A stretch of DNA of 64,000 nt from assembly GCF_003130585.1 (NCBI RefSeq), contig NZ_QFKX01000001.1, positions 744,001 through 808,000 on the forward strand, given 5' to 3'. The stretch is from Brachybacterium endophyticum (lineage in GTDB: Bacteria > Actinomycetota > Actinomycetes > Actinomycetales > Dermabacteraceae). The notes beneath the pieces were generated by a model that saw only the letters and a list, made by a program, of their open reading frames with translations, was not told where the DNA came from and made no database searches. Below, piece by piece: positions 12,528-47,161 of this stretch. How positions within the stretch are numbered: the first letter of the stretch is position 1; the number at the start of each line of letters is the position of its first letter. A program made the translations under genes and the position numbers.

Positions 12528-12601
12528 GCCCCCATAGCCCAACCGGCAGAGGCAGCCGCCTTAAAAGCGGCTCAGTGCGGGTTCGAATCCCGCTGGGGGC
12601 A
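12528..12601 (+). tRNA. tRNA with UAA anticodon and a short (class I) variable loop
   Basis: A full cloverleaf can be drawn. The acceptor arm GCCCCCA/TGGGGGC (12528-12534 with 12594-12600) is followed by TA, a D-arm (12537-12553), a perfect 5-bp anticodon stem GCCGC/GCGGC, and the loop CTTAAAA with anticodon TAA at 12562-12564. The variable loop TCAGT has only five bases, and the T-arm is GCGGG/CCCGC with loop TTCGAAT. The discriminator is A at 12601, followed by CC but not the final A, so CCA is completed post-transcriptionally. The anticodon would read UUA (Leu). Canonical tRNA-Leu is class II with a long variable arm, so either the identity is unusual or this is a lineage-specific leucine tRNA. 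Confidence 0.9.
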
Positions 12602-38186: not shown

Positions 38187-38747
38187 TCAGCGGCCCCGTC
38201 GCCGGGGTGTGCCGCGCGGCACGAGCACGAGCACGAGGGCGATCAGCGCGAGGGTCCCGAGCACCAGCGTCCACTCGGGGGTGCGGGCCCCGGCCAGCGG
38301 CAGCACCAGCAGCCAGAGGCCTCCGCCGAGCAGCACCGCGGCGCCCGCCCAGGCCGCGCAGCGCAGCGCCGCGCCGCGGGTGATGACCCCGTGGGCGGGC
38401 ACCATCGCCGCGGTCGACCAGCAGGCATGGGCGAGCAGCAGCAGGCAGCCGATCAGGGCGAGCACACCGGCTCCTCCCGGCGCCGTACCCGCCGCGGCGA
38501 GCACCGGGGCGGCGAGGGCGGGCAGGCCCCAGGGCCCGTCCGGCCGCAGCGACTGGAGCAGTCCGAACACGATGACCGCGAGGCTCGTGACACCGGGCAG
38601 CAGGGTCGAGAAGAGGTCCCCTCCCGTCGCGACGAGCTGGGCGGACGCGAGGGCCACCACCGCGAGCAGCCGCAGCGCCCACTGCGAGCGGGAGACATGG
38701 CCGAGGTCGACGAGCATCTGCGCGAGGGACTCGACGAGAGAGCGCAT
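38187..38747 (-). CDS. Small polytopic membrane protein of the MoxR-DUF58 cluster
   Basis: This 186-residue hydrophobic protein has about five transmembrane segments (at about 24-44, 48-68, 75-100, 104-145 and 152-178) and a basic RGTPRRRGR tail. It has no domain I recognise. Its ATG shares a base with the DUF58 stop (TGATG), so it is translated with that gene. Membrane proteins in this place are a regular part of actinobacterial MoxR-DUF58 clusters, which suggests a structural role in the complex (inference). Confidence 0.7.
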   Translation of the reverse strand: MRSLVESLAQMLVDLGHVSRSQWALRLLAVVALASAQLVATGGDLFSTLLPGVTSLAVIVFGLLQSLRPDGPWGLPALAAPVLAAAGTAPGGAGVLALIGCLLLLAHACWSTAAMVPAHGVITRGAALRCAAWAGAAVLLGGGLWLLVLPLAGARTPEWTLVLGTLALIALVLVLVPRGTPRRRGR

Positions 38748-40087
38748 CAGGACCTCCTCATCCGCGGGGCGCTCGCCGCACGCGCCAACGAGAGCAGCAC
38801 GGGGGCGAGGGATCCGGGCCCCTCCCATACCGTGACCGGCACGCCCTGCTCGCGCAGCTCCCGGACGGTGCGCTCGCGCTGCAGGCGCCTCAGCGTCCAG
38901 GCCTCCTCCCAGTAGCGGTCCTCGCGGGCCGCGCGACGCCTGGCCCCGGTGCCGAGGGCCCGTGCATCGCCGACGGTCCTCGGCAAGGTGTCGACGACGA
39001 TCACGTCTGCCCCGAGGGCCAGCAGGTCGCCGATCTGTCCCAGCACGCCGGGTGCCAGCAGGGGAGTGCACACCACGACGAGGGTCGAGGTCCGCACCCG
39101 GCCCAGGCGGTGGATCCGGGACATCCGGCTGTCACCGCGGTGGGCGCGCGAGAGGGTCTCGGTGAGCACGCGCAGCTGGCGGGGGCCCGTGCCCGCGCGG
39201 ACCGGACCGATCTGGGTTCCGAGGTCGTGCACGCCGACCCGGTCGCCGACGGACAGGTAGTGCCGGGCGATCGCGGCGGTCGCGCGGACGGTGACGTCCA
39301 GGCTGGTGGCGTCCTCGACATCGGTGGGCACGACCTCCTGGAGCGTGTCCGTGACGATCAGGACATCGGTGTCGCGCTCGGTGAAGGTCGCGTTGGTGTG
39401 CAGGGTGCCGGTGCGGGAGGTGACGGGCCAGTTGATGCGGTGCATGCGGTCGCCCGGCTGGAACTCGCGCACGTCCGCCAGCGCCGTGCCCTCCCCGCGC
39501 CGACGCGACAGGTGCTGGCCGGCGACGCCCGTGGGCGCGGGCACCGAGGGCGGGGCCTCGAGCAGGGAGGAGCCGGGGGTGACGTGCAGCGGGACCGCCG
39601 GCAGCGTCGTCTGGGTGCGGAAGGCGCCGAGGGCGTCGGCCAGGGCCACGTGTAACGGACCGATCTCGTAGCGTCCCCAGCGCTGGGCGGTCACCACCAG
39701 TCGTGCGGAGCGGGCGGTCAGCTCCGATCCGAGCGGCGGGGAGAGCAGGGCGTGCGCGGGCACGGGGACGGAGAGGCCCAGCAGGACGTCCTCGGAGGAG
39801 TCGACGGCGATCGCGACCGTGCCGCCCTCGTCGAGCTTCCGCCCGGTGCTGCGCACGCGGGGGCGCAGCAGACCGTCGCGCTCGCCGCGGGCGAGGCGCC
39901 GCACGACCGCGATGATCGCCCAGGCCAGCAGCGGCAGTCCCAGCGCCAGCAGCTGCGGGCGGCCGACGAGCACCGCGAGCACGGCGGCCAGGCTCCCTGC
40001 GAGGCCGGCACGGATCAGCGCCGGCGAGGGCAGGGTGCGAAGCCGCTCCGGTGGCTTCGACCGCTCCGGCTCGCTCGCCTCAGCCAT
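38747..40087 (-). CDS. DUF58 domain-containing protein (MoxR-associated)
   Basis: This 446-residue protein has two N-terminal transmembrane segments (about 25-42 and 46-63), a beta-rich region, then the DUF58 core with DVREFQPGDRMHRINWPVTSRTG, followed by a vWA-like fold (DVLIVTDTLQ). DUF58 proteins act with MoxR AAA+ ATPases, thought to assemble or activate other proteins; the exact substrate is unknown. It overlaps the MoxR gene by 8 bp. Codon 145 (39655-39653) is TTA, one of only two in-frame UUA codons that I could find in the window. Confidence 0.92.
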   Translation of the reverse strand: MAEASEPERSKPPERLRTLPSPALIRAGLAGSLAAVLAVLVGRPQLLALGLPLLAWAIIAVVRRLARGERDGLLRPRVRSTGRKLDEGGTVAIAVDSSEDVLLGLSVPVPAHALLSPPLGSELTARSARLVVTAQRWGRYEIGPLHVALADALGAFRTQTTLPAVPLHVTPGSSLLEAPPSVPAPTGVAGQHLSRRRGEGTALADVREFQPGDRMHRINWPVTSRTGTLHTNATFTERDTDVLIVTDTLQEVVPTDVEDATSLDVTVRATAAIARHYLSVGDRVGVHDLGTQIGPVRAGTGPRQLRVLTETLSRAHRGDSRMSRIHRLGRVRTSTLVVVCTPLLAPGVLGQIGDLLALGADVIVVDTLPRTVGDARALGTGARRRAAREDRYWEEAWTLRRLQRERTVRELREQGVPVTVWEGPGSLAPVLLSLARAASAPRMRRS

Positions 40088-46149: not shown

Positions 46150-46156
46150 ATCGGTG

Positions 46157-47161
46157 ATGACGAATCCTTCGGACCTCCGCGGCGCCGACGACGCCGCGAC
46201 CCTGCAGATCGAGTCCGATCACCGTGCGAACGCGGTGCTCGAGGGCCTCCCGCCCAGCGAGGCGGAGCCACCGGCGGGAGACGCCCGCTCTCTCGAGTCC
46301 ATCGGCCGGGGCGAGCTGCTGCGGCGTCGCTTCCTGCGTAACCCGAGCGCCGTGACCGGCATGGTCATCGTGCTGCTGTTAATCCTCGCGGCGATCTTCG
46401 CGCCGATGCTCTACCAGTACGGGCCCTTCGAGCGAGATCTGCGCAACGCCCTGACGGGGCCGACCCAGTTCCACTGGTTCGGGGTCGACGAGAACGGGTA
46501 CGACGTGTTCGCCCGCACCATGGTCGGCCTGAGGATCTCGCTCGTGATCGGTGCCGGCACGGCGCTGCTGACCACGCTTCTCGCTCTCCTGGTGGGGACC
46601 ATCGCGGGGTACGTGAGCTACAAGGGGCGGTGGGGCGCATTCGTCGACGGCGCCTTGGTGAACCTGATCAACCTGTTCCTGGTGATCCCTGGTCTCCTGC
46701 TGCTGATGCTCTTCAGCCCCGTGCTGCAGCAGGCAAGCTGGCTGTGGATGATCCCGCTGCTGGCGGTCTTCTCCTGGATGCTCACCGCCCGCGTGCTGCG
46801 CGCGATGACCCAGCAGCTGGTGCGCACGGAGTACGTGGAGGCCTCGCGCTTCATGGGCGTGAACCCCGTGGTCACGATCGTGCGACACATCATCCCGAAC
46901 ATCGCGAGCTGGATCATCATCGACACCACCCTGGGCGTGAGCGCCGCGATCCTCGGTGAGACCGGGCTGTCGTTCATCGGCTTCGGCATCCAGTACCCCA
47001 ACGTGTCGCTGGGGACGGTGCTGCAGGGCTACAACATCTCCGCGCCGTGGACCTGGATCCCGCCGGCCGCCGTGCTCGCTGCGCTGGTGATCTCCGTGAA
47101 CCTGATGGGTGAAGCCTTGCGCGACGCCCTCGACCCGACCAGCGGCTCGAGCCGGGTCTGA
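46157..47161 (+). CDS. Oligopeptide/dipeptide ABC transporter permease (OppC/DppC-like)
   Basis: This 334-residue permease has a 60-residue polar cytoplasmic head, then six transmembrane helices. It shows HWFGVDENGYDVFARTMVGLRISL, the EAA loop RTEYVEASRFMGVNPVVTIVRHIIPNI and ETGLSFIGFGIQYPNVSLGTVL, all typical of OppC. AGGTGA just upstream suits the ATG at 46157; GTG at 46154 is in frame. Codon 75 (46379-46381), in the first helix, is TTA. That is one of only two in-frame UUA codons I could find by eye in the window. Confidence 0.95.
   Translation: MTNPSDLRGADDAATLQIESDHRANAVLEGLPPSEAEPPAGDARSLESIGRGELLRRRFLRNPSAVTGMVIVLLLILAAIFAPMLYQYGPFERDLRNALTGPTQFHWFGVDENGYDVFARTMVGLRISLVIGAGTALLTTLLALLVGTIAGYVSYKGRWGAFVDGALVNLINLFLVIPGLLLLMLFSPVLQQASWLWMIPLLAVFSWMLTARVLRAMTQQLVRTEYVEASRFMGVNPVVTIVRHIIPNIASWIIIDTTLGVSAAILGETGLSFIGFGIQYPNVSLGTVLQGYNISAPWTWIPPAAVLAALVISVNLMGEALRDALDPTSGSSRV

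Follow-up and report, generated by a model that had tools for sequence, protein, structure and literature searches.

A class I-shaped tRNA as the probable leucine tRNA for UUA in Brachybacterium endophyticum

Results

A single tRNA gene with a five-base variable loop

The window analysed here, a stretch of 64,000 nucleotides of the B. endophyticum genome, contains a single tRNA gene, at 12528-12601 on the plus strand, flanked by a Helicase_C_3-domain gene and an MFS transporter gene that both lie on the minus strand. The Rfam model RF00005 matched it with 61.1 bits (E 8.9e-11 over the 64 kb), above the curated gathering score of 29, and ARAGORN called it tRNA-Leu(taa) and reported no second tRNA in the window. 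The gene is 74 nt long without CCA, which is not encoded, CCG standing directly after A73. Its parts are as follows.

12528..12601, plus strand: class I tRNA-Leu(UAA) gene including the discriminator A73 (12601); RF00005, ARAGORN and covariation in relatives
12528..12534, plus strand: 5' strand of the acceptor stem, GCCCCCA, pairing with 12594-12600; cloverleaf, 7 of 7 pairs
12537..12553, plus strand: D arm GCC-CAACCGGCAGA-GGC, a 3-pair stem with an 11-base loop; direct reading and comparison of Leu D arms
12555..12571, plus strand: anticodon arm with the loop CUUAAAA; cloverleaf
12562..12564, plus strand: anticodon UAA; ARAGORN and cloverleaf
12572..12576, plus strand: variable loop UCAGU, 5 bases, the last of which is U48, the partner of A15; cloverleaf
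12577..12593, plus strand: T arm GCGGG-TTCGAAT-CCCGC; cloverleaf
12594..12600, plus strand: 3' strand of the acceptor stem, TGGGGGC; cloverleaf

Read directly, the cloverleaf is free of mismatches, with 7 pairs in the acceptor stem, 3 in the D stem and 5 each in the anticodon and T stems. An initial annotation, made from the letters of the window, had described an excellent cloverleaf; the Rfam score and the full pairing of all stems bear this out, and the coordinates, the UAA anticodon at 12562-12564 and the variable loop of only 5 bases that it gave are all correct. When 116 distinct class I genes for Leu(UAA) were compared, pairing held in 1963 of 1972 stem cells and 16 of the 17 stem pairs had changed on both sides, which excludes a cloverleaf that arose by chance. 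A scan for sigma-70-like promoters found none near the gene, although a consensus scan says little in such DNA, and a terminator scan around the gene detected nothing.

Leucine identity elements are kept in the absence of a long arm

The elements through which E. coli LeuRS recognizes its tRNAs are listed, in the portions of a 2023 review on which we draw, as A73, A14, A15-U48, G18G19 and A20a, with A73 crucial and G73 an antideterminant, whereas the long variable arm is not needed and armless tRNA-Leu variants stay active (PMC9976931). The gene at 12528-12601 keeps every listed core element, its D loop bearing A14, A15, G18G19 and A20a as the genome's class II tRNAs for Leu do, and departs from tRNA-Leu(UAA) of the class II type in the variable arm, which is long there and counts 5 bases here. 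A pattern drawn for the Leu D arm matched four Leu arms, that of this gene included, and none else among the 13 arms tested; comparison by eye showed that Leu(GAG) shares it and that no non-Leu tRNA does. The combination of A15 and U48 also occurs in some Arg, Asn, Gln, Thr and Trp tRNAs of the genome. On the side of the enzyme, one LeuRS lies above the family cut-off in the source genome, with a match that reaches position 842 of 843.

The same elements recur in relatives. In two overlapping sets of distinct class I genes (28 and 94 genes, 116 distinct overall), U48 was present in 28/28 and 94/94, and A73 in 26/28 and 94/94; the D-loop positions were fixed by the search pattern in the scanned sets, so that U48, A73 and the stems constitute the free evidence. 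The exceptions at position 73 come from the genus itself: among its 22 genomes whose locus was read, G032 (locus L080) and G035 (locus L075) carry G73 in place of A73. The variable loop of the G035 gene has 6 bases, and neither genome shows the class II UAA pattern despite G73. How LeuRS might charge a G73 tRNA in these two species is puzzling, and this observation slightly lowers our confidence in the reading as a leucine tRNA.

No other UUA-reading tRNA is found in the genome

The source genome assembly (3.55 Mb, 17 contigs, 99.89% complete) yielded 49 RF00005 matches, which were read with ARAGORN. They include class II Leu genes with the anticodons CAA, CAG, GAG and TAG, whose variable arms measure 13-17 bases versus 5, as well as class II Ser and Tyr genes. 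The initial annotation had proposed looking across the whole genome for a class II tRNA-Leu(UAA): none is present among the 49 matches, and the gene at 12528-12601 is the single TAA gene found.

We also considered a class II UAA gene hidden by an intron. No group I intron was found in the source genome or in three others, using a model that matched in 8 of 14 control genomes, and a loose U34 class II pattern, which cannot span an intron, returned unconvincing three-mismatch matches alone. With neither a group I intron nor a credible U34 class II match, this candidate was rejected. A second UAA gene inside a gap of the 17-contig assembly is possible; the class II UAA pattern was found in 0 of 36 Brachybacterium genomes.

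The class I shape is widespread in Actinomycetota

BLAST with the gene returned matches at E <= 0.001 in 55 of 58 genomes, comprising its own genome and others of the genus and order, a cut-off that also admits other tRNAs (G053 with a class II-length match at 1.0e-6, G054 at 6e-4). Within the genus, 34 of 36 genomes matched, at E <= 7e-17, and loci were read in 22 of these 34. The genomes without a match were G005, G025 and G038; the two belonging to the genus are 84% complete (G005) and split into 520 contigs (G025). Altogether, 37 of the 40 loci read were class I Leu(TAA) and three were class I Leu(CAA).

In a phylum-wide sample of 396 genomes, exact patterns detected a class I UAA gene in 64 and a class II UAA gene in 147, and both shapes in none, versus 23.8 genomes expected (hypergeometric P 4e-15, a value that takes no account of the kinship among genomes). 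Variants escape exact patterns, and neither UAA pattern was found in 185/396 genomes of the phylum sample and 19/119 of the order. When 30 loci per pattern were checked, 29 of those from the class I pattern had that shape, at 74-77 nt, and 29 of those from the class II pattern had theirs, at 83-88 nt; ARAGORN gave no UAA tRNA in 3 of 140 pattern loci (L115, L123 and L227), which were dropped. Within each of two families of the phylum sample (f34 and f63), some genomes have the class I and others the class II UAA pattern, a hint that replacement or transfer has happened repeatedly.

A scan of named genomes, for which 80 of at least 119 stretches were read, placed the class I gene, among the matches listed, in Mycobacterium, Nocardia, Gordonia, Rhodococcus, Corynebacterium, Microbacterium, Arthrobacter, Brachybacterium, Nocardioides, Geodermatophilaceae, Acidimicrobiaceae and others. 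At least six class I records lie outside Actinomycetota or are unclassified (L157, L160, L179, L180, L190 and L191), five of the six being metagenome bins in which contamination is possible. Record L191, from the cyanobacterium Cylindrospermum sp. NIES-4074, carries its class I tRNA-Leu(UAA) amid many tRNA genes.

The initial annotation had suspected a lineage-wide actinobacterial feature, and the counts in genus (34/36), order (98/119) and phylum (64/396) agree with it. It had also allowed that the shape might simply be that of the ordinary leucine tRNA of the lineage, and as far as sequence can show, it is.

The two shapes tend to exclude each other for a given anticodon

Across the 119 genomes of the order, the patterns found class I UAA genes in 98, class II UAA genes in two and both in none. 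The CAA isoacceptor behaves likewise: class I in 45 genomes, class II in 58 and both in one, versus 21.9 expected if genomes were independent, and in this sole double (G464) the class II string is unlike a tRNA. The arrangement of the source genome, class I UAA with class II CAA, is seen in 55/119 genomes (54 without G464), and 35/119 have both anticodons in class I shape. The reverse arrangement, class I CAA with class II UAA, was found in G053 and G475, from one genus of the order; other genera in the family of these two genomes have class I UAA. Mycobacterium sp. SM1 has a CAA tRNA of class I alongside class II Leu tRNAs for GAG, TAG and CAG.

UUA is extremely rare in Brachybacterium and means leucine in a low-GC relative

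The initial annotation had stated that UUA is nearly absent from the window, with two in-frame cases. In 59 ORFs chosen by codon-position GC content we counted 4 TTA in 23,053 codons, of which two are credible, in close accord with that statement. These two lie in ORFs with plausibly placed Pfam matches, encoding an OppC-type permease (46154-47161) and a DUF58 protein (38747-40087); the UUA of the OppC-type gene falls in a hydrophobic run inside the OppC_N match. The other two of the four TTA seem to lie upstream of true starts; in the ORF of one of them a chaperonin match begins after the codon. Over 400 kb around the tRNA gene, 364 ORFs chosen in this way contain 8 TTA in 143,417 codons. Alignments within the genus were informative in two cases, both at one and the same TTA codon, which faces Phe in one relative and Val in the other and gives too few sites for power.

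Given this scarcity, the codon test was moved to a low-GC relative, Actinobacteria bacterium IMCC26103 (46.6% GC in the part read). It has two UAA tRNAs, both class I, and six long tRNAs (three Ser, Tyr, Leu GAG and Leu TAG), as read from 36 of 38 matches that fell in the stretches taken; the two others span 73-74 bases according to Rfam. The two class I Leu(UAA) genes lie about 13 kb apart (L380, C1:75001-95000) and are not identical, the differences falling in the D arm and the acceptor stem. Among 40 ORFs that have homologues in the reference set, Leu is encoded most often by TTA (312/1216). At sites with conserved flanks, TTA stood opposite Leu in 100 of 149 cases (67%), as did the other Leu codons in 69-78% of theirs (CTA 81/116, TTG 78/113, CTT 114/161, CTC 70/90 and CTG 49/66); the Ile codon ATT did so in 34 of 212, and the second residue opposite TTA was Val (13/149). 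With stricter flanks the figure for TTA was 29/41 (71%) versus 73-88% for the other Leu codons. TTA thus has the lowest Leu agreement of the six codons, by a small margin. This type of tRNA thus goes together with leucine at UUA in IMCC26103 and, by descent, very probably does so in Brachybacterium as well.

Discussion

Taken together, our results argue that the gene at 12528-12601 encodes a leucine tRNA for UUA, of class I shape, that has replaced the class II form, a reading to which we give a probability of about 0.9. Its product would be the cell's sole UUA-reading tRNA, and an ordinary bacterial LeuRS would charge it with leucine through A73 and the D-loop/Levitt core, without a long arm. 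In the Brachybacterium lineage, as in a large part of Actinomycetota, the class I tRNA-Leu would have supplanted class II tRNA-Leu(UAA), the other four Leu tRNAs in the Brachybacterium genome remaining class II. For the source organism itself, we infer both charging by LeuRS and the direction of the replacement from comparative sequence data. Among the explanations that the initial annotation had offered, the strongest support goes to a LeuRS that accepts a class I shape, given the intact identity elements, the single LeuRS and the meaning of UUA in IMCC26103.

In Streptomyces, the bldA tRNA is of the class II tRNA-Leu(UAA) type, and the gene described here could in a comparable way, as the initial annotation also proposed, be a regulatory tRNA whose supply limits the translation of a few UUA-containing genes. 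Such a role would be compatible with a class I leucine tRNA for UUA, and it would fit a codon of extreme rarity with one reader found, which is nevertheless matched in 34 of the 36 genus genomes. We regard it as unlikely: (i) neither of the credible UUA genes of the window, one for a transporter subunit and one for a DUF58 protein, is a known developmental regulator; (ii) the same shape is that of an everyday tRNA where UUA is common, in IMCC26103. The gene also differs from the bldA type in lacking the class II shape.

Charging with another amino acid, which would leave UUA reassigned or ambiguous in the genus, was also put forward by the initial annotation. In its favour, leucine tRNAs do not usually have the class I shape, UUA at 8/143,417 codons is scarce enough to change its meaning, the two informative genus alignments face Phe and Val, and two species of the genus have G73. 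We nevertheless consider this very improbable, since all listed LeuRS core elements are kept, UUA is leucine where it is common and read by the same tRNA type (IMCC26103), and the UUA of the OppC-type gene sits in a hydrophobic run within the OppC_N match. We thus see no positive sign of a changed genetic code, and the suspicion of one has become unlikely. That the gene is a decayed or non-translational relic, with UUA read by another tRNA, might be suggested by its departure from the class II shape and the lack of a consensus promoter, yet is hardly credible in light of the almost complete stem pairing and the compensatory changes seen among 116 genes, the failure to find another UAA tRNA in the source genome and the mutual exclusion of class I and class II UAA genes across genomes.

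Returning to the class I leucine tRNA for UUA, its recurrence under UAA and CAA anticodons leads us to favour, with less assurance, a broader view: that bacteria have a second, class I-shaped kind of leucine tRNA which has supplanted class II isoacceptors repeatedly, anticodon by anticodon. Some phages carry the shape as well, as do scattered genomes that lie outside Actinomycetota. If this view is correct, LeuRS would in these bacteria charge tRNAs of both shapes within a single cell, contrary to the long-arm rule. The class I leucine tRNA for UUA is itself a natural exception, on a large scale, to the class II rule for tRNA-Leu, and it provides a natural test of LeuRS recognition, with one enzyme facing two tRNA shapes per cell and clades that swap them by anticodon. 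A practical consequence is that the length of the variable arm is unfit for calling leucine identity in actinobacteria.

Comparison with known systems

Phage genomes carry related genes: a similar sequence was found in 64 of 50,697 phage records, and the annotated records label such genes plainly as tRNA-Leu. Those of Mycobacterium phage Bonray, tRNA-Leu(gag) and tRNA-Leu(caa) (74 and 75 nt), share the short loop and differ in anticodon; in Bonray (L401, 601-749) the short-loop GAG and CAA genes adjoin a class II Leu(CAG) gene. The GAG tRNA suggests that the class I shape extends to CUN anticodons. A phage origin of the Brachybacterium gene was considered and is not demonstrated, the annotated record read, that of Bonray, bearing a GAG anticodon.

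Akin to the gene at 12528-12601, class II tRNA-Leu(UAA) has the UAA anticodon, A73, A15-U48 and a Leu-type D arm; it differs in its 83-88 nt and long variable arm (29 of 30 loci) from the 74 nt and 5 bases in Brachybacterium. The class I tRNA-Leu(CAA) seen in Mycobacterium sp. SM1 and in several families of the order has the same shape, a similar D arm and a leucine anticodon, but reads UUG, and the CAA tRNA of the source genome is class II. A tRNA-Leu(TAG) from a mobile tRNA cluster of Mycobacterium, noted as departing from the 'normal' larger loop, likewise combines a leucine anticodon with a short loop; it has another anticodon and is an extra copy beside a normal one (PMC6582537). Animal mitochondrial tRNA-Leu(UUR) also lacks a long arm and, in human, owes its identity to A73 and A14, but it is organellar and the human transcript is partly unfolded, as described in passages of PMC9976931, whereas the Brachybacterium cloverleaf is regular.

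The 2023 review assigns a long arm to tRNA-Leu throughout, in organisms and organelles alike, with animal mitochondria as the sole exception (PMC9976931), and the figure legends of two tRNA phylogenies from 2008 mention several short-armed Sec, Ser, Tyr and Leu tRNAs, with no mention of actinobacteria in the text (PMC2265525, PMC2474678). Short-armed Leu genes are thus already in databases, and their lineage-wide pattern seems to have been little discussed in open-licence papers. The bacterial class I tRNA-Leu is very probably a noteworthy exception to the textbook rule.
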